From NCBI GenBank assembly GCA_902782245.1, contig CACZMI010000008.1, positions 61,450 through 94,185 on the forward strand: 32,736 nucleotides of DNA, written 5' to 3'. Shown here one piece after another: positions 5,153-19,362 of the stretch (position 1 is its first letter; each line of letters opens with the position of its first letter). The notes beneath the pieces are model-generated. The model was not told the DNA's origin. It saw only the letters and a program-made list of their open reading frames with translations, and did not search any database. This DNA comes from an uncultured Bacteroidales bacterium (GTDB lineage: Bacteria > Bacteroidota > Bacteroidia > Bacteroidales > Bacteroidaceae). The position numbers and the translations under genes were made by a program.

Positions 5153-5202
5153 CTGCAAAAATCCGATTTGGTGCGCTCTCACGGCGATTTTTTTGCTTTC
5201 CC

Positions 5203-5342
5203 GCCAAAGTGTCCCACAACGAACCGCTTCCTGGGCGCTGTGGGGCCGATGAGTGTGTTACACACCCCCTGTATGAACGTGTGTCCCACAACCACCCGCG
5301 TGAGAACGTATTCTGAGCGGGGTGGTTGTGGGACACTTTGGC
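5203..5342. repeat. 140-bp palindromic repeat, copy 1
   Basis: The element is bounded by the 16-bp inverted repeat GCCAAAGTGTCCCACA / TGTGGGACACTTTGGC, in this copy extended to a perfect 19 bp (5202-5220 with 5325-5343). It contains a strong hairpin in its right half: GTGTCCCACAACCACCCGC at 5281-5299... pairs with the closing arm, with one extra G. The left internal arm is decayed here (GTGTGTTACACA instead of GCGTGGGACACA). It lies between the promoter side of rho and the 3' end of the anti-sigma-like gene. Copy 1 is closest to copy 2. No target-site duplication is evident. Confidence 0.93.
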
Positions 5343-5361
5343 GAAAGGACAGGGATCGTTC

Positions 5362-5688
5362 TCAGAACGAGGTAATGAGCAGGGATAGGTTGACATCATT
5401 TTGAGCAATGCTGCGGCAGGTGTCGGCATAGTTGAAGGCGGTATTGCCATTGTTGCCGATGCTGCCTAACTTAGGCATTGCTATTCCGATGACAACGCCG
5501 GCAAGCATTGCGGCTACCGCAATCCATGAAGGTATGCGGCGGTGCAGCATTCCGGGCTCGCTGTCTGTGATGTCCAGCTGCGGCAGTGTCATACTGCGGT
5601 TCTGGGCATCGGCATTTGATTTGATCCGAGCAATCAGCTCCCTATTCTCTTTCTCAAGTTCAGTAAGTTTATCCATATCTTTATTCAT
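5362..5688 (-). CDS. Small one-TM protein, probable anti-sigma partner
   Basis: This 108-residue protein has a charged, coiled-coil-like N-terminus (TELEKENRELIARIKSNADAQ, about 8-27) and one membrane helix (WIAVAAMLAGVVIGIAMP, about 55-72). It overlaps the upstream ECF sigma gene by 8 bp. That position and architecture are typical of membrane anti-sigma factors, with the cytoplasmic N-terminus binding the sigma factor. I see no ASD zinc motif (HxxxCxxC) and do not recognise the family, so the role is inferred from context. The short C-terminus (about 35 residues) would lie outside the membrane. Confidence 0.75.
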   Translation of the reverse strand: MNKDMDKLTELEKENRELIARIKSNADAQNRSMTLPQLDITDSEPGMLHRRIPSWIAVAAMLAGVVIGIAMPKLGSIGNNGNTAFNYADTCRSIAQNDVNLSLLITSF

Positions 5689-6205
5689 TGATTTTACAAT
5701 AGTTACGCACCTCTGTCAGCGCTGTGAACAGACGTGATTTTACTGTGCCCTCAGGTATGTTGCATACACGGGCAATCTCTGTCAGAGGCAGTTCCTCCTC
5801 ATATCTTAATAGAAACACCACCTTTTGCGGTTCGGGAAGACGGCCGATGGCATCACTGAGGATACGGTCCCGCTGTTCCTGTTCCAGATGGTCGGTGTCT
5901 GTTACGGGTTCATCCTTCGGGGCGTTTTCCACATACTCCATTACAGTCATGCGGCGGCGATACTCATTTTTGAGCATATTGTACGCTATGGAGAACATCC
6001 AGGTGTGGAACGGCCTTCCGGAATCGTAGCTTTCTCTGGATGCCCACAGCCGCAGAAACAGGTCCTGAGTCAGGTCTCGGGCCAATTCGCGGTCAAAGCC
6101 GGTCATCCTGAGGAAGAAACCTTGGGCACGCGGGCCGTGCTCAAGGTAGAGGGTTCGGAACGTTTCAGCGGTCAATCTCATCGTTGTAGCGTTTACGTTC
6201 ATCAT
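5681..6205 (-). CDS. ECF-type RNA polymerase sigma factor
   Basis: The product (about 174 aa) is a group 4 sigma-70. Region 2 includes ELARDLTQDLFLRLWASRE and FHTWMFSIAYNMLKNEYRRR, where the -10 element is melted. Region 4 includes LPEPQKVVFLLRYEEELPL and the helix-turn-helix TEIARVCNIPEGTVKSRLFTAL, which reads the -35 element. It overlaps the secreted-protein gene upstream by 41 bp if the first ATG is used. The ATG at 6181 (MRLTAETFRTLY) would cut the overlap to 17 bp and is an equally fair start. The overlaps with both neighbours imply one coupled transcript: secreted protein, sigma factor, anti-sigma-like protein. Confidence 0.93.
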   Translation of the reverse strand: MMNVNATTMRLTAETFRTLYLEHGPRAQGFFLRMTGFDRELARDLTQDLFLRLWASRESYDSGRPFHTWMFSIAYNMLKNEYRRRMTVMEYVENAPKDEPVTDTDHLEQEQRDRILSDAIGRLPEPQKVVFLLRYEEELPLTEIARVCNIPEGTVKSRLFTALTEVRNYCKINE

Positions 6206-7358
6206 CGGTTATGTTCTCCGTGCGGGCTACAACGCGTTTCATCAGTCCGTACAGCCTGCGCATCTGGCGTTTTTCACCATTCTCCTTGTAGAAATCCAGC
6301 AGAGATTTGAAACATGGAATATAGTTGAGATTGAGCTTGTAGGCCGATGCCTCGTATGTCTCAGGGGTGAATGTCTCGTACAGATAATCAGTGAGATATA
6401 TCTCCTCAAAATTCCTGCGTTTTACTGATAGGTTGTCATAGCGCCTGGGACTGTATTTATAGACCAGACCTTCAGAGTAAAGCTTGTCCGTGAAAGGCAG
6501 GTGATCCATCAGGGTAGAGAAGTAAATGGGGCGTCCGGTCTCACGGGCTACTGTGAGGTAGAGATTCTCCTCCCAGGTCCTGAGCCCCTGCTCGGTCCAG
6601 TCTGTAGGGCCTTCTATCTGGCTGATTCCCAGCTGGCTGCATATGTTATTGAGATATTCGGGCGAATAGAGAAGTCCTACACATATCACAGTGCGGTCTG
6701 TGAACAGGTCCTTTCCGTACTGTACCATCAGAGACGAGAATGTGGGAGTATCGCCATTTACAAATATGATGCCGTTTTGCTCCATTCCAGCCAACTGGTT
6801 ATAAGCATAGGAGAGCAGGCTGTAGGAATATTCTCCGGTATTATACCATCTCTTAAGGATATCGGCCATCAGGTCAATCTTGCCATTGTTTAACAGATAG
6901 ACCACGTAATCCTTATACATATATGCGTTGTCCGGGCGCATCCTGATGGCTTTCTCCATGTTGTCCGCCTGATTCTCAGACTCTTTGAGCCACATATTGC
7001 AGTAGTAGTCCAGGCAATAGCGGGCGTAGCTGTCGGGACGTTCCTTGCGGACTTTTGCGGCAATTGCTGCGAGCGGGGCATCATCAAAATCAAAGCTTTC
7101 ATCCTCACTCTCAAACATCAGTTTGTATCGGGTGGCGTGAAACCAGTTTATCCACGCATCATCATCAGAGGGTGTCAGTGTGACCTGGGCTTCCCACAGT
7201 CGGGCCTGGCTTGCATACCACCCGGCATCATGCCTGGTCTTGACAAATGATACAATCTGTTCGGGCTTGTTTGCGGTTTGGGTCTTATCGGTTGCTGCGT
7301 ATGCATCGGCCATTAAAAAGGCAGCCAGCATTATCATTGAAAACACTTTTCTGTTCAT
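6165..7358 (-). CDS. Secreted protein of unknown function in an ECF sigma operon
   Basis: A 397-residue protein with a signal peptide (MNRKVFSMIMLAAFLMADAYA, cut near 21-22). The mature part looks mostly helical with TPR-like stretches (WYASQARLWEAQVTLTPSDD; MEKAIRMRPDNAYMYKDYVV). A central region containing GIIFVNGDTPTFSSL and a Cys-poor C-terminal helical part follow. The NGD motif recalls soluble domains of DUF2723-type membrane proteins, but I do not rely on that. No catalytic motif is recognised. It is the first gene of the sigma/anti-sigma operon, so it may sense or carry out the envelope response that this sigma factor controls; that is inference. Confidence 0.8.
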   Translation of the reverse strand: MNRKVFSMIMLAAFLMADAYAATDKTQTANKPEQIVSFVKTRHDAGWYASQARLWEAQVTLTPSDDDAWINWFHATRYKLMFESEDESFDFDDAPLAAIAAKVRKERPDSYARYCLDYYCNMWLKESENQADNMEKAIRMRPDNAYMYKDYVVYLLNNGKIDLMADILKRWYNTGEYSYSLLSYAYNQLAGMEQNGIIFVNGDTPTFSSLMVQYGKDLFTDRTVICVGLLYSPEYLNNICSQLGISQIEGPTDWTEQGLRTWEENLYLTVARETGRPIYFSTLMDHLPFTDKLYSEGLVYKYSPRRYDNLSVKRRNFEEIYLTDYLYETFTPETYEASAYKLNLNYIPCFKSLLDFYKENGEKRQMRRLYGLMKRVVARTENITDDERKRYNDEIDR

Positions 7359-7454
7359 ATTAGTTTGATTGATATGTTACACTTTTTCTTGAAGCGCTTC
7401 ATCTGTGCATACACGTAACGGCGGAAAAGGTTCGGCAAAGATGTGACTTTTTTT

Positions 7455-7594
7455 GCCAAAGTGTCCCACAGCGAACCGCTTTCTGGGTGCTGTGGGGCCG
7501 ATGAGCGTGGGACACAACCCCTGTATGAACGTGTGTCCCACAGCCACCCGCGAGAGAACGTATTCTGAGCGGGGTGCGTGTGGGACACTTTGGC
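7455..7594. repeat. 140-bp palindromic repeat, copy 2
   Basis: Same length, boundaries and orientation as copy 1, and its nearest relative. All four GTGTCCCAC-type arms are intact here: 7461-7470 forward, GTGGGACACA near 7508-7517 reverse, GTGTGTCCCAC near 7531-7541 forward, and the closing arm. It lies between two divergent genes (the secreted-protein gene and the DUF3667-like gene), with a T-run on its left. The remaining intergenic bases (7359-7454 and 7595-7621) hold no gene. Confidence 0.93.
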
Positions 7595-7604
7595 GGAAAA
7601 TGAG

Positions 7605-7612
7605 TAATTTTG
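7605..7612 (+). promoter_or_regulatory. Candidate -7 box for the DUF3667-like gene
   Basis: TAATTTTG matches TAnnTTTG and sits 11 bases after the right end of repeat copy 2 and only 9 bases before the ATG at 7622, so the leader would be almost absent. The -33 region would fall inside the repeat's terminal arm, with no good TTTG at correct spacing. It may be fortuitous. Confidence 0.3.
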
Positions 7613-7621
7613 CTGCCGGTT

Positions 7622-8550
7622 ATGAAGAGACATAGTATAAAGGTGAGGCTCCGGGCGTTCCGGATTTGGCAGGTGCTGGGTTACAATCCGTGGAAATCGG
7701 AGTGGACTGTGGCCGATGATGTGCCCGAGGATGGCGTGAAGGGGTTTTATCGCGGCGCGTTTGACAGTATTCCTTTTTTGAATGATGATGCCAAGCGTAC
7801 GTTCGTGCATCTGCTGCTGCGCCCGGGTTACATGATAAGCGATTATATAAAAGGTAAGCATGACCTTTATCTGGCACCGCTTACATCGCTCATAATATTC
7901 TACGCATTCTTCTCTTTGGTTTCATCGATTGCACATCCGGAGTTTAAAACTGATAATGCATCGGATTTCAGTATTGATTCGGACTCCGTTATATCTTCAG
8001 GGTCAATTATCAATCTGGATTTCTCAAGTGTGGATTCGGTTACGATGGCAGAGATTAACCAAGAGGTCAAGCTGAAAACGGATAATCTGATGGGCTATCT
8101 GGAGAAGATAAACATACTGATGCATCTGGACAGTCATCCTGAGGCCGTTGATTCTCCCAAGAAAGCATCGCTGGCTGCATTAGAGAGCGCGTTGCGCAGT
8201 CAGGGCATACAGTATTTCCTGGAGATTTTCCTGTTGCTAGGCCGGCCATGCGTATTGTGCTGCGCAAACAGTCCATGGGGTGGGCTGCATCGGCTACCAC
8301 TGCTGCGTACGTGCTGTGCCAGTTCAGTTTCTTTATGCTGTTTGTGCTGATATTCTCTCTGGGCAAGAGTAATGAGATAGGAATGTTTTTTTGCAGTCTT
8401 CTGATAATGATTGATTATCATCAGCTGTTCGGCATCAGTTACGGAAAGAGTTTCTGGCTCACAGTCAAGACCCTGATTTATTACCTGCTTTTTATAGGCT
8501 TACTGATATTGATTCTGAGTATCGCGGTATTTGTCTATATGTTCATTTGA
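7622..8550 (+). pseudogene. DUF3667-like membrane protein, frameshifted
   Basis: The start MKRHSIKVRLRAF leads into a DUF3667-like core containing LLLRPGYMISDYIKGKHDLY followed by a membrane segment (APLTSLIIFYAFFSLV). The N-terminal zinc-ribbon cysteines usual for the family are absent. The frame is good to about codon 205 (FLEIFLLL, near 8236), then runs into a Cys/Leu-rich tail unlike a membrane protein. Another frame, from about 8230, continues convincingly (RPAMRIVLRKQSMGW, then two strongly hydrophobic segments) to TGA at 8548-8550. Restoring one base near 8231-8241 rejoins both parts into about 310 codons. This is a real pseudogene or a sequencing indel. Its stop lies 3 bases from the convergent anti-sigma-like gene. 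Confidence 0.8.
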
Positions 8551-8553
8551 TAA

Positions 8554-8925
8554 TCAGAATGCCGCTTTGCGTGTGCGTGACAGTATGTAACTTAATGACA
8601 CCGATAGGGCGGCGGCCAGGATAAGGAAGTATTCTTTCCAGGTAGTCAGGAAAACGATTATACCAGCCAGCGCTCCCTGATTGAATTTATTGAGATCTAC
8701 GGGGCAGATATAGCCGATGATTACTGCTGCTGCACCAATAACTATTCCAAGAATAAGTGTAACGATAAGCGCCATGCGGCCGTGGGTGCGCTGACGGTCA
8801 ACTTCGGCCTTGATGCCTTCCACCTGTTTGAGACGGCGGTTTGTCTCCAGCAGGAATGTGGGGTCATCCTTAAGTTGCGGTTTGTTGCTGCGCAGAAATT
8901 CTTCTATGTTGTCCTTTCCGTTCAT
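8554..8925 (-). CDS. Two-TM protein, probable anti-sigma partner
   Basis: A 123-residue protein with a hydrophilic N-terminus (about 1-48, MNGKDNIEEFLRSNKPQLKD...) and two membrane helices (about 50-72, ALIVTLILGIVIGAAAVIIGY; about 92-114, TWKEYFLILAAALSVSLSYIL). It overlaps the ECF sigma gene by ATGA (8922-8925), which implies translational coupling. I take it to hold the sigma factor at the membrane. No named anti-sigma motif is seen; the assignment rests on operon position and topology. Confidence 0.72.
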   Translation of the reverse strand: MNGKDNIEEFLRSNKPQLKDDPTFLLETNRRLKQVEGIKAEVDRQRTHGRMALIVTLILGIVIGAAAVIIGYICPVDLNKFNQGALAGIIVFLTTWKEYFLILAAALSVSLSYILSRTRKAAF

Positions 8926-9407
8926 ATGCTAAGGTATTCTTTTAAGTGATTACGGCCGATAGAGAGCAGGTACTTTACCGTGCCGGAGGGTATTTGCATT
9001 ATGGATGAAATCTCTTTTATATCGTGATCCTCAAAGTAGTGGAGCACTATTGCGGCGCGTTCCTTGTCCGGTATCCTGTCAAGTGCCTGATAGAGTTGCT
9101 GATAACGGAATGAGTCATCGGTGGAGTCATCGGACAGGACACTTTGCGCCTCGAATGAATCATTGGAGACCGTGTCAAGGGTCGCTTTCCTGCAGTTGTC
9201 TATAAAGCAGTTGTAGGCAATCCTGAACAGCCAAGTGCTGAACTTGGAGAGTCCCAGGAATGAGCCCGATGCCACATACGCACGTACCAGGGCGTCCTGG
9301 GCAATGTCATCGGCCAGAGACTGGTTGCCGCTACACAGTCCAAGCAGAAACCTACGTAATGGCTCCTGCTCAGCTCTGATAAGTTCTATGAACCGCTCCC
9401 GGGTCAT
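8922..9407 (-). CDS. ECF-type RNA polymerase sigma factor
   Basis: A 161-residue group 4 sigma-70. Region 2: SLADDIAQDALVRAYVASGS and STWLFRIAYNCFIDNCRK. Region 4: IPDKERAAIVLHYFEDHDI then the helix-turn-helix KEISSIMQIPSGTVKYLLSIGR. It is the middle gene of a compact three-gene operon. The DUF6249 stop directly abuts its ATG (TAAATG), and its own stop overlaps the next ATG. DUF6249-sigma-small membrane protein trios are recurrent in Bacteroidales as far as I know. The regulon is unknown; a candidate self-recognised promoter is noted upstream of the DUF6249 gene. Confidence 0.94.
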   Translation of the reverse strand: MTRERFIELIRAEQEPLRRFLLGLCSGNQSLADDIAQDALVRAYVASGSFLGLSKFSTWLFRIAYNCFIDNCRKATLDTVSNDSFEAQSVLSDDSTDDSFRYQQLYQALDRIPDKERAAIVLHYFEDHDIKEISSIMQIPSGTVKYLLSIGRNHLKEYLSI

Positions 9408-9839
9408 TTATTTACCGTTATTGAGTGATTCTTCCTCTGCCTTGAGTTCATTTGCCAGCATACGCTTGCCTACAAAGTAGCTGATGAACAGGCCTATGCC
9501 TACTGCGATGGCGACGCAGCCAAAGATTGTAAAGTTGGTGATGATGAATGAGTCGGTATAACCAACCAAGGAGAGTACCAGAATTGCTATGCACAGGGAT
9601 ATGCCTACTGCTGTTACTATACATGCTCCGGTCAGTTTGCCCAACAGCTTCTCTTTAAGGCTCTTTTCCTTATGCTGTGATTTAAGGAACTCAGGGTCGA
9701 TTGATGCACCGGACTCGATTGACTTGAGAAGGATCTCTGTTTTCTTGTTGGTTTCGTTCTGGCTTGTGCGGTTGTTCAACCAGACAACGATGATAGGCAT
9801 GATTACGCAAACACCGATCAAAAAAATTGAATTCATCAT
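9408..9839 (-). CDS. DUF6249-type membrane protein
   Basis: The 143-residue product has an N-terminal membrane helix (IFLIGVCVIMPIIVVWL, about 5-21), a polar stretch with NNRTSQNETNKKTEILLKSI, then two more helices (about 73-97 and 102-123). This order of a first helix ending in PIIVVWLNNRT and two late helices fits DUF6249 proteins encoded with ECF sigma factors in Bacteroidetes. An early second Met (MMNS) is an alternative start. Function is not known; a membrane signal-input role for the sigma factor is an inference from the operon. Confidence 0.78.
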   Translation of the reverse strand: MMNSIFLIGVCVIMPIIVVWLNNRTSQNETNKKTEILLKSIESGASIDPEFLKSQHKEKSLKEKLLGKLTGACIVTAVGISLCIAILVLSLVGYTDSFIITNFTIFGCVAIAVGIGLFISYFVGKRMLANELKAEEESLNNGK

Positions 9840-9890
9840 AATGCTTAAGTTTTTATTGTTTAACGTTTACACCGCTTTTCCGGGCGGTTT

Positions 9891-9915
9891 CATACGTTAG
9901 ACGTAAGCGGGTTTC
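9891..9915 (-). promoter_or_regulatory. Possible ECF-type promoter of the DUF6249-sigma operon
   Basis: On the minus strand the region reads GAAACC, then about 12 bases including CGTCTAACG, then GTATG, a spacing and composition like ECF promoters with an AAC-type -35 element. No TAnnTTTG box is found in this 105-base gap, so dependence on the operon's own sigma factor is plausible. A small hairpin (ACCGC at 9871-9875 with GCGGT at 9884-9888) would lie in the leader. Confidence 0.35.
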
Positions 9916-9944
9916 AAAAGGTTGGAAAAGGACATAATTTTTTT

Positions 9945-10451
9945 TTATTCTTTGATCTGGATGCCATCCAGAAGTTTCTTGATCTTGCGCTTGAGTTCTT
10001 TCTGGGTCTGACGGTCTCCCTTACAGAGTTTCTTTATTTCCTTGTTTGACCTCTTTGTGAACTGCCTTTTGAGTTTGTTGAGAGTCTTCTGATCAAATTT
10101 CTTGATCTCCTTGTCTTTGAGCTGGTTAACCATTCCGTCGTCACCTGCCAGGGTGTTGTAGACTACCTGTATGAGCAGGAAAGGCTGGCTGCTTTTAAAA
10201 TCAAAATCAAATTTGAGATTGAGGTTTATAGGGTCAGCGCCGTCAGCTACTCTTACTGAAAAGTCACTGACAATATTCTGTACTGACTGAAGTATCTCGT
10301 TGAGATTAAGATTATCAAAACTCTTGGAAAAGCTTATCGAATCACTGCGAAATGCGGCAGTATTTCTTGCACCTGCAGACTGCGGAATGCAAACAAGAAA
10401 CATAAGCAGGAATATTCCAAACACGCGTTTCAATGTGGTTCTTTGGGTCAT
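9945..10451 (-). CDS. Small secreted Lys-rich protein, unknown
   Basis: A 168-residue protein with a signal peptide (MTQRTTLKRVFGIFLLMFLVCIPQSAGA, cut near 28). The mature part begins with a Ser/Phe/Asn-rich segment (SFSKSFDNLNLNEILQSVQ). It has a short beta-like stretch (INLNLKFDFDF) and ends in a very basic helical tail (about 110-168: KDKEIKKFDQKTLNKLKRQF and repeats of KKL/KKLLDG). No family is recognised. It is likely transcribed on its own and reads toward the DUF6249 operon, with a 105-base gap. The basic tail might bind anionic polymers; this is speculation. Confidence 0.68.
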   Translation of the reverse strand: MTQRTTLKRVFGIFLLMFLVCIPQSAGARNTAAFRSDSISFSKSFDNLNLNEILQSVQNIVSDFSVRVADGADPINLNLKFDFDFKSSQPFLLIQVVYNTLAGDDGMVNQLKDKEIKKFDQKTLNKLKRQFTKRSNKEIKKLCKGDRQTQKELKRKIKKLLDGIQIKE

Positions 10452-10529
10452 ATTGAGATAATTTTAAGGTTTAGTAGTCTGCTAAAAGACGTGTCAGTTC
10501 TTAATATGTTATAAAAGGAGACGATTACT

Positions 10530-10560
10530 TTTGATAACTACAAAGAATAGTTTATGTTTG
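10530..10560 (+). promoter_or_regulatory. Promoter of the thioredoxin-like lipoprotein operon
   Basis: TTTG at 10530-10533, a 19-base spacer and TATGTTTG at 10553-10560 match the Bacteroidetes housekeeping consensus TTTG-N19/20-TAnnTTTG completely. Transcription would start near 10566, giving a leader of about 25 bases before ATG 10592. Genes diverge from this 140-base gap (10452-10591). Confidence 0.8.
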
Positions 10561-10591
10561 TGTTTAGTATTAACTTAATTCTATCCTTGTT

Positions 10592-12379
10592 ATGAAGCGT
10601 ACAATAATCCTTTTGAGTGTTTTGTTTGCTCTGTTGTCCTGCGGACGGAAAGTGAAAGTGTGGGAAAATCCTGTGATCGGTGCCACACGTTATGATCAGT
10701 ACACGATAAAGAAGGTGGTTTTTACCGAGGACAGCACAGTCCTCTATTTTCATGTCCATTATCCCTCAATGGGCGGTTTTACTTTCGGTAAGGAAACCTA
10801 CATAGAGGCCGATGGCAAGCATTATCTGATAACAGGCAGTGACGCATTTGAGCTGGGGCAATATATCACTACGGATCCTAAGACATGGGAAAAGGATTTC
10901 AAACTCTATTTTGAGCCGATGCCCAGGAACACCAAGATGTTTGACATTATAGAAGGTCATTTTGAGGGCGCATACACATTCTTCAACATCCGTCCGGAGG
11001 GTGTAAAACTACCTGTCGGGAAGGTACCTGCAGAATATCTGGCCGATTATCCCGAGGAGGATGAATGGCCTGCTATGAAATATAGTGAAGACCCTGTTAC
11101 AATTCATTTTAAGTCCTTAAACTATAAGCCAGGCATGAAGACCAGATTAGACTTGTGGCATTTTGACATTACTGACCCGTCATCATTCAATCAAGATATT
11201 ATTTACCTTAATGATAATGGAGAGTATGACTACACATGCAAGACTTATTATCCGCAATACATACAGATAGTTATGTCTTCTCCAGGACCTGGATGGGCCT
11301 CAAGTGTTCAGGCTATGATGGCTCCGGGCGAATAACTGACAGTTCTGATTGATGTGAATGTAGTGCCGGATTCTATCCACGACGCTATTGTGGGCTTTAA
11401 GGGTTATCTGGCCAAATACACCCGCAGGAATCATGAAGGTGATAGGTGGCGTATGGCCGACAAGTCCAATATCACTCTTGCGGAATGGACTATTGATCAT
11501 GCAACTACGGTTGCCCAGTTGATTGCAGGGTATGATTCTGTGGTGACTTCATTTGAGAAATTCAATAAAGCAAACGGCTTTTCAGAACTGGAAAGCAAAC
11601 AATTCTTTGATTATGAACTCAGATATTTTGATCTTGTAGCCCGTAGTCAGGATTCGTTGTTCCGTTCCAAGGAATTTCTGGATTTCATACTCAGCAAACG
11701 TCCTGCCTGTTTCTTTGGTGATAACATAGTTCCCACACCGGATTACGAAAGAGTATCCTGTTTGTTCGCGGGTACTGACATCAAGGGTATCGGACCTGAT
11801 TTCTGCCGTTATCTGGATGGTGTTAAACAGGTACAGGGCGGTAAAAAGATAAAGAAGCCGTTCATTGAAGACCCATATCTGTCAAACCTGTATGACAAGG
11901 TAACGGGCGCTGTAGATGAGCAAATGGCCAAGAATAAGAATACCAAGTTTGCTCCTAACGTGCATTATCTGGATCTGGCCGATGTCGCTCCGGAGAACAT
12001 ACTCAGCACCATTCTTGACAGATATAAAGGCAAGACCATCCTTCTTGACATGTGGGAGACCTGGTGCGGCTATTGCATTCAGGGACATCAGGATATGGCA
12101 CCTTATAAAGAAGAGTTGAAGGACAAGGACATCGTATTCCTCTATTTTGCCTCACCAAGTTCACCGTTTGACCAGTGGATGCACTATACTGTAACAGTTC
12201 CAGGTGAGCACTATTACCTCACAGAGGAGCAGAACGATTATCTGTCTGAAAAGGTCTGGGGCACAGGCGGAGTACCAAAATACGCGATTTATTCAGCGAA
12301 TGGCACTCAGCTCTACAAACAGGTAGGTTGGGGTGGCCTGGACAGAATCAAACCCGAAATTGAGAAAGCACTCAAGTAA
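10592..12379 (+). pseudogene. Thioredoxin-like (TlpA/DUF4369 type) lipoprotein, interrupted by in-frame TAA
   Basis: The N-terminal part (MKRTIILLSVLFALLSCGRK) is a lipoprotein signal with lipobox LLSC, so the protein would be envelope-anchored. The frame runs to TAA at codon 248 (11333-11335). The very next codons, in the same frame, continue the expected sequence (APGE-stop-LTVLIDVNVVP, resembling the APGEKLTV-like motif usual in this family), so AAA, GAA or CAA to TAA explains the break. The rest (341 codons from 11354) includes a helical linker and a thioredoxin domain with active site WETWCGYC (about codon 489-496) and a cis-Pro motif GGVPKYAI. Total 596 codons. If real, the truncated first part lacks the redox domain. 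Related family members are periplasmic thiol-disulfide oxidoreductases. Confidence 0.85.
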
Positions 12380-12389
12380 GATTCCGTAA

Positions 12390-12737
12390 ATGACCTTTTT
12401 GCGCAAGATAGGATTGTCATTCAGATACGGCAGCGGCTATTTTGTCGTTGCCGGTCTGGTTTCATTATGTGCGTTTGTCATTGTAGGGATAAATTCGGGC
12501 GACATAGAAGGGCTATCGGAAGGTATTTTCATATGCAAGATCCTTAAGATACTCTCAATACCCATAATCCTGTATCTGTTCCGCAAGTTTGACCGCAGCA
12601 GTGCAATATACTTCTGGCTCAATCTTGGTATAAGCAGTGTGGAGTACTATGTCATTCCCATTGTAATAGAGTATGTGTTTTTCAGGCTGCTCATTTATAT
12701 AGCGCCGCCGTTGTTCACCTTATTGCATTTGAATTGA
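12390..12737 (+). CDS. Small membrane protein next to an ABC ATPase
   Basis: A 115-residue very hydrophobic protein with about three to four membrane segments (around 17-35, 48-64, 70-88 and 90-110). Its start is 10 bases after the stop of the broken thioredoxin gene, and its TGA is one base from the ATG of the ABC ATPase, so the two are one transcript. No family recognised. It could be the membrane partner of the ATPase, although a permease subunit is normally larger, or an unrelated membrane protein. Confidence 0.7.
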   Translation: MTFLRKIGLSFRYGSGYFVVAGLVSLCAFVIVGINSGDIEGLSEGIFICKILKILSIPIILYLFRKFDRSSAIYFWLNLGISSVEYYVIPIVIEYVFFRLLIYIAPPLFTLLHLN

Positions 12738-12738
12738 G

Positions 12739-13410
12739 ATGGAGCAGGAGGATGAAAACGGAAAACTGCTGATTGACAGCGTGCAGCTGCGCTTTGGCGA
12801 AAATGTCGTCCTGCAGAGCGCATTCGTGACTTCATACAAGGGTAGGGTGACAGGTGTGCTGGGACGTAACGGAACGGGTAAATCCTGCCTGTTCAAATGC
12901 ATCATGGGCGGTATACGTCCGCAGAACAAGTATATCCGCCTGAACGATGAGCCGCGCACTGACTATGGGCATATCGGACTGCGTGTCAAGTATCTCCCGC
13001 AGGCTCATTTCATTCCGCCGGGCATGACTCTGCCGCAGGCCTATGAATTATACGGCGTTGATTTTGAGGGGCTTGTAAGGTTTGATGATAAATTTGACTG
13101 CCTGAGAGAGCAGAAGGTCAAGGAATTGTCAGGCGGCGAGAGGCGCATAGCGGAACTCTATATGATTCTTAATTCCGATGCCGAGTTCTGCGTCCTGGAT
13201 GAGCCGTTCTCAAATATCGCACCCGTATATGATGAGAAAATCCGCGCCATGATTCAGGAACAGAAAGCCCGTAAGGGAATCATCATAACGGACCACGTCT
13301 ACGAGGAGATACTCAAGGTGGCCGATGACCTATTCCTGCTCAGGGACGGATTCACCTACCAGATTCACTCCCGCGACGACCTGGTCCGTCTGGGCTATAT
13401 CCTTTCTTAG
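12739..13410 (+). CDS. ABC transporter ATP-binding protein
   Basis: A 223-residue nucleotide-binding domain. Walker A GRNGTGKS (about 41-48), Q-loop region KYLPQ (about 82-86), a slightly altered signature KELSGGERR (about 130-138), Walker B FCVLDEP (about 150-156) and the switch His in IIITDH (about 178-183). The ITDH switch and overall length resemble LptB-type ATPases. The transport partner is not evident; the only neighbour is the small membrane protein upstream. The gene ends with TAG, which shows that TAG is a normal stop here. Repeat copy 3 starts 6 bases after the stop. Confidence 0.9.
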   Translation: MEQEDENGKLLIDSVQLRFGENVVLQSAFVTSYKGRVTGVLGRNGTGKSCLFKCIMGGIRPQNKYIRLNDEPRTDYGHIGLRVKYLPQAHFIPPGMTLPQAYELYGVDFEGLVRFDDKFDCLREQKVKELSGGERRIAELYMILNSDAEFCVLDEPFSNIAPVYDEKIRAMIQEQKARKGIIITDHVYEEILKVADDLFLLRDGFTYQIHSRDDLVRLGYILS

Positions 13411-13416
13411 GTTTTT

Positions 13417-13556
13417 GCCAAAGTGTCCCACAGCAAAGCGGCTCACAGCGCTTGTGGGGCCGATGAGCGTGGGACACAACCCCTGTATGAGCATGTGTCC
13501 CACAGTAACCCGCGTGAGAGCGTATTCTCGGTGGGGTTAGTGTGGGACACTTTGGC
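13417..13556. repeat. 140-bp palindromic repeat, copy 3
   Basis: Same 16-bp ends and length as the other copies. It fills almost the whole 151-base gap between two convergent genes, starting 6 bases after the ATPase stop and ending 5 bases before the M56 stop. With copy 4 it forms a second subgroup: both have AAGCG/CGCTT-type inner stems (AAAGCGGCTCACAGCGCTT region near 13436). A bidirectional terminator role is possible at this site. Confidence 0.93.
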
Positions 13557-13561
13557 GAAAT

Positions 13562-15079
13562 TTATTGGGCGGACTGGATCTCTGTAAGTTCGTCGGTGGT
13601 GACGTCGTCAAGTTCCTTTCCGTTGACCAGGATTTTCTTTATGGGCTTTCCGTCAATGGTGACATTGCCATCGGCGTCAATCTCGGCACCTGGTAGTTTC
13701 TGGATTATATCCTTTACCTGTGCATCATTGGGCACGTTGTTGACATTCACATTGTCCTGATCATCCAGACGGACTGTTGTGTAGTTTTGGCCGTTGACAA
13801 GGATTTTGGATACTTTCTTGCCGTTTACGGTCATATTGCCTTTTTCGTCAATCTCTACATCGGGTAAGGATTTGATCAATTTGTCAACAAATTCCTCGCT
13901 ATATCCGGTGAACTCCATGTTTATGTCCTGGCCGTTGTCCATGTAGCTCATTGTGGGGATAGTCGGGCTGGCATCAGCGGGTTCACTCTTCTTGTAGAGA
14001 ACCTTTCCGTTGATGATGATTTTCTTGACCTCATGTCCCTGTGATGTGATATTTCCTTGAGCGTCGGTCTTGACATCAGGGAGAAATCTTGAAATACCGT
14101 CAAGCGTGATGCCTTCCAATGATTCTCCATCCAGCTTTATCTCATCATATGTTATACTGGCGGAGACGGGCTTGTTGTTGTAAGTTAACTGACCGGAACT
14201 TTTCTTTCCGTCATTGTACACGTAGGTGACCTTGGTTTGGGCATTGAGAGCCAGAGAAATGCAAACTAAGGGGAGAAGATAGAGTGCTCTAAGCAGACTC
14301 CTTCTGGTTGATGTTTCCTTTTCCATCATAAAAATTCGGTTTTTTAAAATACTGTGATTGAAATTATTAGCTATTGTGTATCCGTTCATCGCGGCCGCTT
14401 TGCTAATGAGCAGATACTGATAACTGCGTATGTCGGTGCCGGCGCGCAGTACGGTGTCATCGGCCTCGTATTCATGGACGGCGCGCAGGTCTATGCGCAG
14501 CATCCAGATGGCGGGGTTGAACCACTGCAGGGCGGCAATTATATCGGTTATAAGTACGTCTATTGAATGGCGGAGTGCCACGTGGGCTTTCTCATGATTG
14601 ATGATTGCGGTTTCACGGTTGTTCCAATCGGCCTCGGAGATTACGATGTGTCCCATCCAACTGAATGACGGGGCGTTGCCGGGCATGACGTAGACGGTGG
14701 TGCCATCGGCCGATACCTCCTTACGTGCGTGCCTTATTATACTGCGTACGCGCAGGGCAGATGCCAGAACCCTTGTCAGCACAAAGACTACGCCTGCGGT
14801 ATAGACCGCCATGAGAGCGATGTGCCACCAGGGTGTGGATGGCTGGGCAGGAGTGCTTGAGACGGCTTGCGTGAACTGGGCCACCGGCATAGACAGAACT
14901 TCTGTCTTGTGGATTGTAATGATGCAAACAGGGAGCAGAAGTGAGAGCAAAGCCGTACTCAAGAGCACAATCCTGTTGAGTCTGTGCCATGAATCCTTGA
15001 TGAGCAGCAGACGGAAGAATATGTAGAAGACGGCCATTATGACCGCAACTTTGAGCTGATATATAAGAAAAGTAACCAT
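13562..15079 (-). CDS. M56 family (BlaR1-like) membrane metalloprotease sensor
   Basis: A 505-residue antirepressor-type protein. Three membrane helices lie at about 5-26, 38-56 and 88-109. The gluzincin motif HEKAH is at 162-166 with the third metal ligand region HEYEADD at 202-208. A fourth helix (about 263-280) ends LALNAQ and leads to the extracytoplasmic part. Instead of a penicillin-binding domain, the C-terminus carries three repeats of a motif of the type LPDVEIDEKGN-T-NGK-V-KILVNG (about 333-359, 405-430, 462-488). That motif is known from plug regions of Bacteroidetes TonB-dependent receptors. By analogy with BlaR1/MecR1 it should sense an external signal and cleave the BlaI-type repressor encoded 13 bases upstream. 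Confidence 0.92.
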   Translation of the reverse strand: MVTFLIYQLKVAVIMAVFYIFFRLLLIKDSWHRLNRIVLLSTALLSLLLPVCIITIHKTEVLSMPVAQFTQAVSSTPAQPSTPWWHIALMAVYTAGVVFVLTRVLASALRVRSIIRHARKEVSADGTTVYVMPGNAPSFSWMGHIVISEADWNNRETAIINHEKAHVALRHSIDVLITDIIAALQWFNPAIWMLRIDLRAVHEYEADDTVLRAGTDIRSYQYLLISKAAAMNGYTIANNFNHSILKNRIFMMEKETSTRRSLLRALYLLPLVCISLALNAQTKVTYVYNDGKKSSGQLTYNNKPVSASITYDEIKLDGESLEGITLDGISRFLPDVKTDAQGNITSQGHEVKKIIINGKVLYKKSEPADASPTIPTMSYMDNGQDINMEFTGYSEEFVDKLIKSLPDVEIDEKGNMTVNGKKVSKILVNGQNYTTVRLDDQDNVNVNNVPNDAQVKDIIQKLPGAEIDADGNVTIDGKPIKKILVNGKELDDVTTDELTEIQSAQ

Positions 15080-15092
15080 TGCGTGTGAGTTA

Positions 15093-15464
15093 TTATTTTT
15101 TGTTTTCCAGATGCTGTATAAGTTCCTTTAGTTCATCCACCGTAACCTTGCCGTCGCCAACAAATGCCGATACCGCATTCAGGTATGAGCCAAAGTAGTT
15201 GCCTATGAAACCGCCCATGGAAAACCTGCTGTACTCCTGACGGCTGATGATGGGGAAATACTGATAGGTGGGGCCGTATGCCTTGTGATCCAGGAATCCG
15301 TCCTGCTCCAGCTCGCGCACCTGTGTGGAGAGCGTGTTGAAATGGGGCTGAGGCTCGGGGTATAACTCTCGGAGTTCACGCACAAAGAGTGCTCCCTTGT
15401 CCCAGAAGTGGTTCATTATGACCTCCTTCTTGTCACTCAGTTTGGTAATCTCTTGCTCTTTCAT
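15093..15464 (-). CDS. BlaI/MecI-type winged-helix repressor
   Basis: A 123-residue repressor. I choose the start MKEQEITKLSDKKEVIMN rather than an upstream in-frame codon that would translate the operator. The winged helix is in residues 10-75 (DKGALFVRELRELYP, HFNTLSTQVRELEQDGFLDH), followed by a dimerisation helix region. It represses its own promoter and is inactivated when the M56 protease next door is triggered, by analogy with BlaI/BlaR1. No beta-lactamase gene is present in the window, so the regulated genes are unknown. Confidence 0.92.
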   Translation of the reverse strand: MKEQEITKLSDKKEVIMNHFWDKGALFVRELRELYPEPQPHFNTLSTQVRELEQDGFLDHKAYGPTYQYFPIISRQEYSRFSMGGFIGNYFGSYLNAVSAFVGDGKVTVDELKELIQHLENKK

Positions 15465-15489
15465 AATGCTTGTGTAACTAGTGATGTTG

Positions 15490-15518
15490 CAAATGTAACT
15501 ACTAAAATAGTTGCTCAA
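15490..15518 (-). promoter_or_regulatory. blaI-M56 promoter with operator palindrome between -33 and -7
   Basis: On the minus strand TTG (15518-15516), an 18-base spacer and TACATTTG (15497-15490) form a Bacteroidetes promoter. The palindrome AACTACTAAAATAGTT (15497-15512; AACTA and TAGTT arms) lies inside the spacer, overlapping the upstream edge of the -7 box. A related half-site TGTAACTA occurs again near 15471-15478. This placement is what an autorepressing BlaI protein needs. Confidence 0.65.
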
Positions 15519-15558
15519 CGATTTGTTTAGTTAATATTTGCTAAACGAGCGGTTTTTT

Positions 15559-15698
15559 GCCAAAGTGTCCCACAGTAAAGTGGCTCACAGCGCTTGTGGG
15601 GCCGATGAGCGTGGGACACAGCTCTTGTATGAAGGGATGTCCCACAGTAACCCGCGTGAGAGCGTATTCTTAGCGGGGTGCTTGTGGGACACTTTGGC
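15559..15698. repeat. 140-bp palindromic repeat, copy 4
   Basis: Same ends, length and orientation as the other copies. It lies between the blaI promoter side and the 3' end of engB, starting about 40 bases beyond the blaI -33 box. The central region GTGGGGCCGATGAGCGTGGGACACA is shared with copies 2 and 3. A degenerate 12-base direct repeat built on GGGCTCG follows at about 15707-15735. Confidence 0.93.
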
Positions 15699-15744
15699 GG
15701 CGGCGGCTCGGACTCGGGCTCGAGCTTGGGCTCGGTAACTGGAG

Positions 15745-16341
15745 CTAAAGTGATTTGTTGATGCTGGAGATGTAATCCAGGACATCGTCACGTCCGGATT
15801 TGTCCAGCGATGAGGTGATGAAGTGGGGCGGGAGTTCCTCCCACTGCTCTTTCAGGGTATCCAGGAACTTGTTTACGTTCTCCGTGAGGCGGCCTCGGCC
15901 CAGCTTATCGGCCTTGGTGAAGATGATTCCAAAGGGAACGGCGTTCTCACCCAGCCACTCAATGAACTCCAGGTCTATCTTCTGGGGCTCGTGGCGGCTG
16001 TCAATGAGTACAAAGAGCGATGTCAGTTGTGGGCGCTCCAGGATGTAGTCGTTGATGATACGGGTAAGCTGATCCTGCTGGCTCTTGCCGCGTTTGGCAT
16101 AGCCGTAACCGGGCAGATCCACCAGATACCAGTTCTTATTGATAAGGAAATGGTTGATAAGTAGGGTCTTACCGGGGGTGGCCGATGTCATGGCCAGGCA
16201 CTTGCGGTTAGTCAGCATGTTTATGAGGCTGGACTTGCCCACGTTTGAGCGGCCTATGAATGCGTACTCAGGCATGCTGTGCTGTGGACATTTGCTCACG
16301 TCCGTGTTGCTTATTACGAATTCGGCGCTCTTTATCTCCAT
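15745..16341 (-). CDS. engB: EngB/YsxC/YihA ribosome-biogenesis GTPase
   Basis: A 198-residue TRAFAC GTPase of the EngB family, which assists assembly of the large ribosomal subunit. G1 GRSNVGKS (about 31-38), the switch I Thr in SATPGKT, G3 DLPGYG (about 75-80), G4 TKAD (about 141-144) and G5-like SS (about 176-177) are all present. The length fits the family. It is transcribed away from recR. Its 3' end faces the fourth 140-bp repeat, 46 bases away. Confidence 0.95.
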
Positions 16342-16361
16342 TTGTGAGGGTTTTGTGTGTG

Positions 16362-16398
16362 CAAAAGTACGAATTTTTGGCCGAATCCGTTAAATTTG
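16362..16398. promoter_or_regulatory. Divergent -7 boxes for engB and recR
   Basis: TACTTTTG (minus, 16369-16362) and TAAATTTG (plus, 16391-16398) both match TAnnTTTG, 21 bases apart. The two promoters overlap, so the -33 region of each lies under the other. No perfect TTTG is found at the expected -33 spacing for either. Confidence 0.5.
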
Positions 16399-16419
16399 CA
16401 GTGTATTGAGTCATAATAA

Positions 16420-17028
16420 ATGAATAAGGAATATCCGTCGGCAGCGTTGGAAAGGGCAGTGGGTGAGTTCGCAAAACTGCCGGGCATTGGTCGTAAGACC
16501 GCCCTGCGTCTGGTTCTGCATATGCTTTCCAAACCGGACGAGGAGGTGAGTACCTTTGGGCGTGTGTTCTCCACACTCAAACAGGATATCCGCTACTGCA
16601 AGGTGTGTCATAACATATCGGACACAGACACATGTGCCATATGCGCCAATCCCAAGCGTGATGCATCGACGCTCTGCGTGGTTGAGAACGTTCAGGATGT
16701 GCTGGCCATTGAGAGCACCATGCAGTTTAACGGACTGTACCACGTGCTGGGCGGAGTGATTTCGCCTATGGATGGTGTGGGTCCGCAGGATTTGCAGATA
16801 AACAGCCTTGTGGAGCGCGTGCAGGCAGGAGGTATAGAGGAGGTTATCCTGGCGCTGAGTCCCACCATGGAGGGCGATACCACCAACTTTTTCATTTCCC
16901 GCAAGTTGCAGCCGTTTGGCGTAAAACTGAGCGTGATTGCACGTGGCGTGGCTGTGGGCAATAACCTTGAATATGCCGATGAAGTATCACTGGGGCGCTC
17001 CATTCAGGACCGCACTCCTTTAAAATAA
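16420..17028 (+). CDS. recR: Recombination mediator RecR
   Basis: A 202-residue protein that works with RecO to load RecA at gaps. Helix-hairpin-helix [12 protein letters not shown] (about 20-31), the four-Cys zinc motif [16 protein letters not shown] (about 58-73) and a Toprim domain from [12 protein letters not shown] (about 87-98) to the end are present. The length is normal. It starts a plus-strand cluster with the membrane protein, glycosyltransferase and acetyltransferase, with 11 bases to the next ATG. Confidence 0.97.
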
Positions 17029-17039
17029 TTGCAAATAGG

Positions 17040-17480
17040 ATGAATACTAAGAAAATGTCTGTCAAGCTGATGGCAATGTGGATCAGCATGTATCTGATAG
17101 CAGGAATTATTGCACTGTTGTTTGAATTCGGCCCCATGAAGGGCATGGCTGTAACGGCACCCAAGGTGATTTATGTGCTTCAGGTAGTTGGAGTGCTTGC
17201 CGCTCTTGCACTTATTCCTCTGGCTCTGCGCGGATTCAAGAAGATGGTGGACCGTCTGGATGAGAAGGAGTACCCCGAGGATAAGATAGAAAAGATTTAT
17301 ATGGCATGCTCGGTACTGCGTCTGGCGGCATTCTCGCTGGTCATTGAGTTCGGAGTGGTGCTCTATTATCTGCTGAATGATACAATAGGGCTGTACATTG
17401 CAGCCATCGGCGCAATTTGTTCCATGTTCGCCATTCCCACCAAGGCCGGGATTGAACACGAAACAGGTTACTTTGATTGA
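17040..17480 (+). CDS. Four-helix membrane protein, unknown
   Basis: A 146-residue protein with about four membrane segments (around 9-27, 42-62, 91-109 and 113-132) and a charged central loop (KKMVDRLDEKEYPEDKIEK). I do not recognise a family; it looks like a conserved Bacteroidales hypothetical. It follows recR by 11 bases and its TGA is 2 bases from the glycosyltransferase ATG, so all are probably co-transcribed. No motif suggests activity. Confidence 0.75.
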   Translation: MNTKKMSVKLMAMWISMYLIAGIIALLFEFGPMKGMAVTAPKVIYVLQVVGVLAALALIPLALRGFKKMVDRLDEKEYPEDKIEKIYMACSVLRLAAFSLVIEFGVVLYYLLNDTIGLYIAAIGAICSMFAIPTKAGIEHETGYFD

Positions 17481-17482
17481 TA

Positions 17483-18652
17483 ATGCCGGCAGTAAGTGTC
17501 ATCATAGTCAGCTATAAGGTGAGGTACTACATTGAGCAGTGCCTCAACTCCGTTCTGCGGTCGGTCCCCGATGCTCAGATACTTGTGGTTGACAACTGTT
17601 CCGATGACGGATCGGTGGAATATCTCAGAGAGCGATTCCCGCAGGCTGAGGTTATTGCCAATGATTTCAATGCCGGGTTCGGCAAAGCCAATAACATAGC
17701 TCTGGCCAAGGCTACGGGCAAATATGTGCTGTTCCTTAACCCTGATACCGTTGTGGCAGAGCGTACCATTCCCGGTTGCATCGGCTATATGGATGAACAC
17801 CCGGAAGTTGGTGCCGTGGGAGTACGTATGCAGCACGGTAACGGCCGATTTGCGCCGGAGTCGCGCCGATCGCTGCCTACGCCGTCGGTATCGTTCTGGC
17901 ATATGACGGGGCTGGGCAAGCTGTTCCCAAAGTCAAAGGTGTTCGGAAAGTACCACTGCACCTATCTTAATAAGGATATGGAGTGCCCCATTGATGTGGT
18001 ATCGGGCGCATATATGTTTGTGCGCAGGGAGGCGCTTGACAAGGTGGGCGGATTTGACGAGGCGTTCTTTATGTACGGCGAGGACATAGACCTCTCTTAC
18101 CGCATATTGCAGGCCGGGTATCAGAACCGTTATCTGCCGCTGCCCATAGTACATTATAAAGGTGAGAGTACCAACAAGACATCATACCGATACGCCAAGG
18201 TGTTCTATGACGCCATGCTTATTTTCTTTAACAAGCACTTTAAGCGTTACAGCCGTCTTTTTGCTTTGCTGGTGAGAATTGTGGTGGGTTTCAGGAAAAT
18301 CGGTACTTTTATCGGACAGAACATTCATGCGCACAGCCGCAGGTTGGCCGATTACACTGAGAACTGCCTGTACGTGGGCCGTAAGGAGACTTTCGCCGAT
18401 GTGGAGCGAAAGATATCGGGCAGCACATATCTGCGCAATCCGCAGTTTGTGGAGGGGGCCGATGATGCCGGCGCTGCACTTGAGGGACGTATTGACAATG
18501 GTGTAAGAGCCGTTATCTTTGACACTGACGCTTTCTCTTACGATGCCATCCTGTACTGGATGTACAGCAGGGCTCAGGAGGGCTTGCGATATACAATGGG
18601 ACTTTATTCGGCCCAAGCGGGTCATCTTATAACCGAGGATGAAGTGATATGA
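17483..18652 (+). CDS. Family 2 glycosyltransferase (rhamnosyltransferase-like) with C-terminal extension
   Basis: The start MPAVSVIIVSYKVRYYIEQ is used; a TTG two codons upstream is less likely. The GT-A fold is shown by VVDNCSDDGSVEYL, the NAGFGKANNIAL helix, the metal-binding LNPDTVV (DxD-like, about 88-94), DVVSGAYMFVRREAL and FDEAFFMYGEDIDLSYR (catalytic ED region, about 195-211). This resembles WbbL-type sugar transferases that build cell-surface glycans. About 90 residues beyond the catalytic domain (about 300-389; starts near DYTENCLYVG, includes AVIFDTDAFSYDAIL) form a tail that I do not recognise. It overlaps the acetyltransferase start by ATGA. Confidence 0.9.
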   Translation: MPAVSVIIVSYKVRYYIEQCLNSVLRSVPDAQILVVDNCSDDGSVEYLRERFPQAEVIANDFNAGFGKANNIALAKATGKYVLFLNPDTVVAERTIPGCIGYMDEHPEVGAVGVRMQHGNGRFAPESRRSLPTPSVSFWHMTGLGKLFPKSKVFGKYHCTYLNKDMECPIDVVSGAYMFVRREALDKVGGFDEAFFMYGEDIDLSYRILQAGYQNRYLPLPIVHYKGESTNKTSYRYAKVFYDAMLIFFNKHFKRYSRLFALLVRIVVGFRKIGTFIGQNIHAHSRRLADYTENCLYVGRKETFADVERKISGSTYLRNPQFVEGADDAGAALEGRIDNGVRAVIFDTDAFSYDAILYWMYSRAQEGLRYTMGLYSAQAGHLITEDEVI

Positions 18653-19179
18653 CGGAGAATGATATCTTATCGGACGGAAAATACCGTCTGCGTGCACCGG
18701 AGCCCGAGGATCTGGATGTAATTTTCGGCATGGAGAACGATACGTCGCTGTGGATGGCGTCGGGCAATGCCGTCCCGTATTCGCGCTACCAGATCAAAAA
18801 GTATATTCTCATGTCGTCACATGATTTCTATACGGACCGCCAGATACGGTTCATGATTGAGCGTGTGAGCGACAATGTGGTTGTGGGCAGCATCGATCTG
18901 ACCGATATCGATCCCTACAACGGACGTGCCGAGATTGGTATCGCTCTGCTTTCGGAGCACCGGGGGCAGGGAATTGCATCGGCCGCAATCAAACTTATGT
19001 CGGAGTATGCGAAAAAAGTCCTGCGTCTGCGCCAATTGTTTTGTCATGTGCCGGCCGACAACCAACCGAGCATTAAATTGTTCACCAGTAATGGGTTTGC
19101 TAAAACTGGCCGCCTCAAAGACTGGCTCGTGAAAGATGAAGGTCATGTCGATGTCCTGCTTTTGCAGAAAATTTTTTGA
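18649..19179 (+). CDS. GNAT family N-acetyltransferase
   Basis: A 176-residue GNAT protein. The N-terminus YRLRAPEPEDLDVIFGMEND is typical of RimJ/RimL-like enzymes, and the acetyl-CoA loop is LLSEHRGQGIASAAIKLM (about 100-117), followed by HVPADNQPSIKLFTSNGF (about 136-153). The substrate cannot be told. It is coupled to the glycosyltransferase by the ATGA overlap, so modification of an amino sugar is possible but unproven. Confidence 0.9.
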   Translation: MTENDILSDGKYRLRAPEPEDLDVIFGMENDTSLWMASGNAVPYSRYQIKKYILMSSHDFYTDRQIRFMIERVSDNVVVGSIDLTDIDPYNGRAEIGIALLSEHRGQGIASAAIKLMSEYAKKVLRLRQLFCHVPADNQPSIKLFTSNGFAKTGRLKDWLVKDEGHVDVLLLQKIF

Positions 19180-19198
19180 AAAAAATGTGCTCAGACGC

Positions 19199-19228
19199 TT
19201 GTAGGTATCAAAAATGTACGTACCTTTG
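19199..19228 (+). promoter_or_regulatory. Promoter of tRNA-Asp
   Basis: TTG (19199-19201), 19 bases, then TACCTTTG (19221-19228) match the Bacteroidetes consensus; the tRNA begins 17 bases after the box. Confidence 0.75.
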
Positions 19229-19245
19229 TCACCGCAAAACAGCGA

Positions 19246-19319
19246 GGTGTGTTAGTTCAGCTGGTTAGAATGCCGCCCTGTCACGGCGGAGGTCATGGGT
19301 TCGAGTCCCATACACACCG
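19246..19319 (+). tRNA. tRNA-Asp (GUC)
   Basis: The acceptor arms GGTGTGT (19246-19252) and ACACACC (19312-19318) pair fully, with discriminator G at 19319. The anticodon stem CCGCC/GGCGG (19273-19277 and 19285-19289) closes the loop CTGTCAC, with anticodon GTC at 19280-19282. The T-loop is TTCGAGTC. CCA is not encoded. The 74-base gene is intact. Its 3' end forms part of a long palindrome with downstream DNA. Confidence 0.97.
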
Positions 19320-19362
19320 CAAAACAAAGAGAGTCGCAAACGCGACTCTCTTTGTTTTGCGG
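19317..19362 (+). terminator. Intrinsic terminator of tRNA-Asp, stem reaching into the tRNA
   Basis: A perfect 21-bp stem (CCGCAAAACAAAGAGAGTCGC at 19317-19337 with 19342-19362) encloses the loop AAAC. The left arm begins within the acceptor strand of the tRNA. The arm holds an internal T-rich stretch, although no long U-run follows. After a 3/2-base bulge the pairing resumes for 12 bp with the tRNA T-arm (19302-19313 with 19365-19376). Confidence 0.85.

Follow-up and report, generated by a model that had tools for sequence, protein, structure and literature searches.

A 32,736-nucleotide stretch of DNA from an uncultured Bacteroidales bacterium of the Bacteroidaceae (assembly GCA_902782245.1, contig CACZMI010000008.1; hereafter the window) contains four palindromic elements, c1 to c4, each exactly 140 base pairs (bp) long. 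We consider it very likely that these are non-autonomous mobile elements of gut Bacteroidaceae and of the REPIN type (doublets of repetitive extragenic palindromic sequences, REPs, forming hairpins), moved in trans by a divergent REP-associated tyrosine transposase (RAYT, or TnpA_REP). The elements very probably depend on a distant, unlabelled RAYT relative whose gene is located elsewhere, outside the window, with a copy of the element on either side. We take the four copies in the window to be products of this transposase/element system that are probably not moving now. An unnamed palindromic repeat becomes a gene-plus-element system with testable partners, in a field where the way in which the elements of REP-associated transposases spread is poorly understood (PMC8266576).

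Results

Four copies in the window and the plan of the element

The window comprises positions 61450-94185 of contig C8 in a 2.5-Mb assembly of 98 contigs that is 86% complete. Below, C-numbers denote contigs, L-numbers loci and G-numbers comparison genomes, and the genus set comprises 37 genomes. A preliminary description had reported four 140-bp elements with shared inverted ends at 5203, 7455, 13417 and 15559. We reproduced both coordinates and ends: c1 (5203..5342), c2 (7455..7594), c3 (13417..13556) and c4 (15559..15698), all on the plus strand, are bounded by perfect 16-bp inverted repeats, GCCAAAGTGTCCCACA and TGTGGGACACTTTGGC. With up to three mismatches allowed, the 16-mer matched eight times in the window, always at an end of c1 to c4, compared with a mean of 0.27 and a maximum of 2 matches in 100 shuffled windows, in keeping with the earlier statement that the rest of the window is free of copies. 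The two subgroups proposed there, copies 1-2 and 3-4, are real because pairwise identity is 92% between c1 and c2 and 89% between c3 and c4, and 79-84% across the pairs. The reported intergenic location and common orientation also held: all four copies lie in gaps between the open reading frames (ORFs) picked by hand as genes, and their internal orientation is identical. The ORFs flanking c2 are divergent and those flanking c3 convergent, with 6 bp to the stop of an ABC-protein-like ORF and 5 bp to the stop of an M56-like ORF (labels assigned by eye). Some short overlapping ORFs of the full ORF list overlap c1 and c2, and both orientations of the element occur elsewhere in the genome. Four copies within 10.4 kb have a probability of about 0.015 under random placement of the 35 places in the source genome (merged by hand, 22 of them full-length). 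Pairs of copies at most 10.5 kb apart numbered 20 against 5.0 expected, or 14 when the transposase cluster on C52 is left out. The clustering in this genome is real but moderate.

The same plan could be anchored in all 131 distinct full copies, allowing up to three mismatches per inner word: GCCAAA, word M1, about 35 bp, M2, about 17 bp, M3, about 36 bp, M4 and TTTGGC. The four words are 10 bp long and alternate in orientation in every copy, M1 and M4 being the outer and M2 and M3 the inner ones; c1 reads GCCAAA, M1 (GTGTCCCACA, 5209..5218, plus strand), arm 1, M2, spacer, M3, arm 2, M4 (TGTGGGACAC) and TTTGGC. M1 and M4 hardly vary, and most of the variation in M2 and M3 is between GGG/CCC and GTT/AAC forms. 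Judged by its sequence, each half is a unit of GCCAAA followed by a predicted hairpin, and the two halves face each other, which is the architecture of a REPIN. Folding of c1 to c4 as single-stranded DNA gave z scores of -4.9 to -6.8, and none of 200 shuffles of any copy folded as well, so that the inverted, spaced and conserved units looked for in a REPIN are present together with single-strand hairpin potential.

A probable partner gene between two copies

At locus L193 (RUG14751), four elements lie within 3.1 kb and two of them enclose a 301-amino-acid ORF. The encoded protein was matched in 14 of the 37 genomes of the genus, weak matches included, and at an identity of at least 82% in seven. 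The 140-bp elements stand on both sides of the gene in all seven of these genomes, just as a cognate RAYT gene is flanked by copies of its REPIN. The seven close homologues occupy three gene neighbourhoods (G006/G004, G015/G011 and G026/G000/G010). In a sample of the family, 10 of 399 genomes matched the protein, all in the same genus (one of 30 genera), and a sample of the order yielded the source genome and two others among 393. The source genome itself has a shortened partner ORF on C52 (L118:3922-4707), from which 40 residues, including the HPH motif, are gone in frame and which retains the tyrosine motif.

Pfam and NCBIfam scans of the partner protein of about 300 residues returned no family call, and Y1_Tnp, at an expectation value (E) of up to 1, matched none of the 13 family members; RAYT relatives can evidently escape annotation. 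All 13 members carry HPH and Y...Q[AP]TKD with 56 residues between them. The motif order is that of RAYTs and the C-terminal end is similar, which provides a HUH motif and a catalytic tyrosine as judged by sequence motifs, the HPH being the part lost in the source-genome copy. Compared directly by profile, the protein and 18 PF01797 RAYTs from the genus align over 228 columns (probability 70%, E 4e-5). Among 60 column shuffles the highest probability was 2.5% (E 0.019), and the reversed alignment reached 0.3%. A route through three bridge proteins gave E-values of 1.4e-25 and then 2.8e-12. Some proteins weakly matched by the query are also weakly matched by Y1_Tnp, one of them over the cut-off in one Y1_Tnp scan and just under it in another, and the classic RAYT motifs NHIH and YVLRNP are present in a homologue from a different family of the order. 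A search of PDB sequences with the protein found nothing meaningful (best E 0.39). Homology to Y1_Tnp proteins is shown by the profile-profile comparison, and these links make the protein a divergent relative of REP-associated tyrosine (HUH/Y1) transposases, with predicted transposase activity.

Sister homologues with sister elements

A broken homologue in G013 (66-75%) is accompanied by variant elements with GTGTCCCGC on both sides. Seven intact homologues with 47-57% identity to the query have elements of the same plan on both sides in five cases and on one side in two, namely G016, where only 752 bp upstream are covered, and G018. The sister elements have GCCA...TGGC ends and other words, and measure 139 bp in five types and 121 bp in two; words told apart among elements of this plan include GTGTCCCAC, GAGAAAC, GGTAAC and GGTACC. 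The unit starts with GCCAAA in the 140-bp family and in six of the seven variants, and with GCCATT in the remaining one. G031 has three such genes and G013 also three, one of them broken, and their elements differ. Three of the seven variant types were used as queries in the 37 genomes. Full copies of the GAGAAAC type occurred in G013 only (six), next to three 21-bp matches in G036 and G007, and those of the GGTAAC type in G031 only (five). The GACTCA type gave six full copies in G031 and one in G013, which has a 78%-identical homologue. The searched variants are dispersed almost only in genomes with the corresponding homologue. A Mantel test over all 13 gene/element pairs gave r 0.88, which is significant but carried by the close group.

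We lean slightly towards the view that a RAYT lineage beyond the reach of Y1_Tnp models keeps a fixed frame (GCCA ends, four alternating words, a length of 139-141 or 121 bp) and exchanges the recognition word freely, every homologue reading a word of its own. Since the geometry would stay the same and the word would differ from homologue to homologue, one genome could host several REPIN populations that are mutually exclusive. The genus holds about seven natural enzyme/word pairs on one plan; if true, the exchanged words would offer a natural set of variants from which the reading of a hairpin by a single-strand transposase could be decoded. More distant RAYT relatives (L221, L227 and L233; G001, G018 and G013) have different surroundings, namely tandem arrays or recurring palindromes of another kind, with, for example, GGTACGG or AGTGTGCGCACACT.

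Ordinary RAYTs and other repeats

Y1_Tnp matched 42 loci in 23 of the 37 genomes of the genus, one of them in the source genome. Forty of these loci were examined and none has the 140-bp element, on which ground ordinary RAYTs were rejected as the partner; one of the 40, L059, resembles a plain IS200 transposase. As for the other two, no element was found at G027:C3 (within L223), and G013:C60 stands outside the count. Ordinary RAYTs of the genus have NHVH/YIHQNP-like motifs. The PF01797 RAYT of the source genome (C57, L077) is flanked by a different palindrome, and two tandem 42-bp palindromes of the same type (AGTACAAAAGGGGTCTGTCCCCTTTTGTATCA...) lie in the window at 22568-22651 and represent another REP family, a short one. 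At a number of the genus's PF01797 RAYT loci (L059-L078, L127-L146), long perfect palindromes stand close to the gene, for example of the GGGGACGGTTCTGTTTGGC types. These palindromes differ between RAYT loci, and many RAYT/REP pairs exist in one genus. Elsewhere in the window, a perfect 21-bp inverted repeat with a 4-bp loop (19317-19362) sits at the end of a transfer RNA (tRNA) gene (19246-19319), and a cobalamin riboswitch spans 19536-19747.

Numbers, length and hosts of the family

The whole element is matched at 22 places in the source genome, which also has partial places and 54 exact ends. Exact ends are present in 25 of the 37 genomes of the genus, in very unequal numbers, and a backward control pattern was found in none of the 37. 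BLAST matches to the element occurred in 24 of 61 genomes, and in none of the 24 that belong to other families of the order. When only matches spanning the whole model were kept, the 131 distinct copies measured 140 bp (n=89), 141 bp (n=35) or 139 bp (n=7). Independently of this, a pattern running from end to end and allowing 127-152 bp retrieved 63 stretches from the genome_contigs collection, all spanning 139-141 bp. Length is nearly constant while identity to c2 falls to about 70%. The titles of the named records that contain these stretches give Bacteroidaceae, Prevotellaceae or Bacteroidales; several come from sheep, red deer, water buffalo or horse, and Candidatus Colenecus caballi (Bacteroidaceae) is among them. 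As seen so far, the family is confined to one Bacteroidaceae genus or records resembling it. Viral contigs contained neither an exact-ended element nor a relative of the partner protein, and carriage by phages was rejected on these grounds. Among the papers listed in our literature searches no title named the 140-bp element or GTGTCCCACA as a bacterial repeat, which does not prove its absence in print.

Empty sites and borders

The elements are mobile, since some species have an element at sites where the orthologous position in other species is empty. At the c1 site, G020, G025 and G026 lack an element and G002, G007 and G014 have one; at the c2 site, G020 and G026 have one and G025 does not. 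At c3, G020 has no element, and an element lies beside the same M56-like gene in G002, G007, G009, G011 and G025. The counterpart of c4 in G002 adjoins the same downstream sequence (window 15553-22556). Joined-flank searches with the 128 of 131 copies that had enough flank, against the genome sequence gathered for the study, gave 12 junction alignments: five at c1/c2, five at a further G002/G007 site that is empty in G000, G009 and G017, and two that were unusable (L083/L047 and L230/L232). The cleanest junction, a G002 copy against G017, has no gap near the junction and no duplication; at the same site G000 and G009 lack about nine more bases. Most filled/empty comparisons also differ by small further changes, which bears on the exact borders.

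A target-site duplication of 2-8 bases was found in none of 122 distinct flank pairs. Movement of IS200/IS605 elements is not known to leave a target duplication either. In all 122 pairs a pyrimidine precedes the 140-bp element, and in 120 a purine follows it. Only 12 of the 104 examinable copies among the 131 overlapped a long ORF by more than 30 bp, compared with 438 of 520 random placements. Like REPINs, the elements are dispersed, mostly intergenic, present in many copies and mobile as a doublet.

A 1.3-kb insertion at the c2 site of G002 and G014 was considered as an autonomous form and rejected: in G002 it is a 408-residue ORF without the element's ends. Within 10574-15559, the block at 10.57-13.41 kb and the M56-like/regulator block at 13.56-15.52 kb are swapped in G002 and G025, with elements near the breakpoints; elements may promote rearrangement. 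The left flank of c1, TTTTTTTGCTTTCCC (5188-5202; cf. L033, L035), is found again ahead of the c2 copy of G020 and G026, which would fit either flanking bases travelling with the element or gene conversion.

Discussion

Taken together, the anatomy, the missing target duplications and the partner gene point to REPIN-like units that move as single strands, driven by a RAYT. Each unit would begin with 5'-GCCAAA, continue into a hairpin whose stem is GTGTCCCACA/TGTGGGACAC, and recur in inverted orientation across a spacer of about 17 nucleotides; the mobiliser would be a divergent RAYT/TnpA_REP with the HUH motif HPH and a presumed catalytic tyrosine in Y...Q[AP]TKD. The element, single-stranded on the lagging strand or after cruciform extrusion, would fold, and a transposase dimer might bind both hairpins. 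The tyrosine could then cut at the GCC/GGC borders, and the cut element would be joined into intergenic pyrimidine/purine sites, leaving no target duplication. We infer the cutting chemistry from IS608 and TnpA_REP (PMC6006769, PMC8266576) and, along with it, the strand and the dimer. It would have been this RAYT-like protein, rather than another, that moved the four window copies.

The preliminary description had left a MITE-like origin and a structured intergenic repeat side by side, and had suggested looking for further copies, for sites without an element and for a transposase gene with the same ends. All three turned up: relatives and the genome itself hold up to dozens of copies per genome; congeners without an element at c1, c2 or c3 are the reverse of what that description had named as grounds for doubt, namely copies at the same places and no empty sites; and a RAYT-like gene lies between two copies in every close homologue. 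Of the MITE-like origin, mobility stood, borne out by the empty sites, and the DDE type did not. A classical miniature inverted-repeat transposable element (MITE) would derive from a DDE insertion sequence by internal deletion, would share its terminal inverted repeats and would be moved by its transposase. The window copies would suit such an element in their perfect 16-bp terminal inverted repeats, as would the mostly intergenic location, the mobility and the size of about 140 bp. We nevertheless regard this origin as very improbable, as the duplication by which a DDE-type MITE is recognized was missing from every flank pair, the gene between the copies encodes a relative of RAYTs, and homologues of that gene stand beside different elements built to this plan. 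The RAYT-like gene was also the only one recognized between copies, with no scan for DDE families made and the end-to-end pattern covering 127-152 bp.

Strict length, strong folding and near-fixed words might equally be expected of a conserved structured RNA or a protein-binding site (a terminator, nucleoid or replication signal) that selection and not mobility maintains, and REP sequences of other bacteria have been credited with host functions (PMC8266576). Yet orthologous sites without the element, very unequal copy numbers among congeners (12 of 37 without any exact end) and other words beside other transposase homologues make this account about as implausible as the MITE. The conserved-RNA form of it finds no support in Rfam, which at gathering scores matched none of the elements and found only the cobalamin riboswitch and the tRNA, or in covariation between the arms, which is slight and not convincing; a secondary use of the elements by the host is possible. 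It would still be conceivable that REPIN elements were moved by an ordinary PF01797 RAYT, of which the genus has many and the source genome one, and that the divergent protein is a bystander inserted among the elements. Here the examined Y1_Tnp loci, all lacking the element, the different palindrome beside the RAYT of the source genome, and the flanking of the divergent gene in seven of seven cases and of its homologues by elements with other words leave hardly any room for a bystander, the least likely of these accounts.

Several observations speak against movement of the elements by the divergent RAYT relative. The sole copy of the gene found in the window's genome lacks HPH; with 40 residues gone from it, the window copies may now be immobile. 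Exact ends occur in 18 of the 30 congeners without a close homologue, including 51 in G002 and 14 in G017, which is scored 100% complete. Either residence outlives the gene or assemblies miss it, and old residents, another mobiliser or assembly gaps are the alternatives. Over eight distinct gene/element pairs the Mantel test was not significant (r 0.34, p 0.07). Arm covariation was barely above that of shuffles (z 1.1 for arm 1, 3.2 for arm 2; -2.8 for the spacer and -1.5 for the outer part); the hairpins therefore rest mainly on the four near-fixed words, and arm pairing carries no conclusion. The shuffle control covers the direct profile comparison, not the bridge comparisons, and an AlphaFold model built from three sequences had a predicted local distance difference test (pLDDT) score of 40.5, unusable as fold evidence, its strand/helix order being no more than compatible with a Y1 fold. 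Finally, a GTAG/CGTC-type tag was not found in the elements. Such a tag is not defining, as it is absent from TnpA_REP subclass 2.6 and class 3 (PMC6006769).

Among known systems, REPIN/RAYT as described by Bertels and Rainey (2011; PMC3116915) comes with two inverted conserved ends, 16-mers there too, around a less conserved spacer, and with predicted single-strand hairpins, extragenic dispersal and a link to a Y1 transposase gene. The present elements differ from that description in having four words instead of two REPs, a nearly fixed length of 139-141 bp, GCCAAA/TTTGGC ends, pyrimidine/purine borders and a transposase missed by Pfam Y1_Tnp. TnpA_REP subclass 2.6 resembles our system in its occurrence in Bacteroidetes and in genes flanked by atypical structures without a GT[AG]G tag, with copies elsewhere (PMC6006769). 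Its motifs are NH[LIV]H and YIH[QN]NP at a median HuH-Y distance of 82 (PMC6006769), in contrast to HPH and Y...Q[AP]TKD with 56 residues between them and no PF01797 match here. The REPtrons of E. coli, Stenotrophomonas and Marinomonas likewise have a gene bordered by its own palindromes and a tetranucleotide before the hairpin, and enzyme and REP co-evolve; REPs there are hairpins preceded by GTAG (PMC8266576), and REPs in general measure 20-40 bp (PMC3733652). IS200/IS605 elements such as IS608 share the HUH/Y1 enzyme and hairpin ends, but move together with their gene (PMC6006769), whereas here the 140-bp element alone is dispersed. On our best reading, the system is filed under REPIN/RAYT, and what is new relative to the compared types is the four-word fixed frame, the GCCAAA ends, the borders and a transposase invisible to Pfam.

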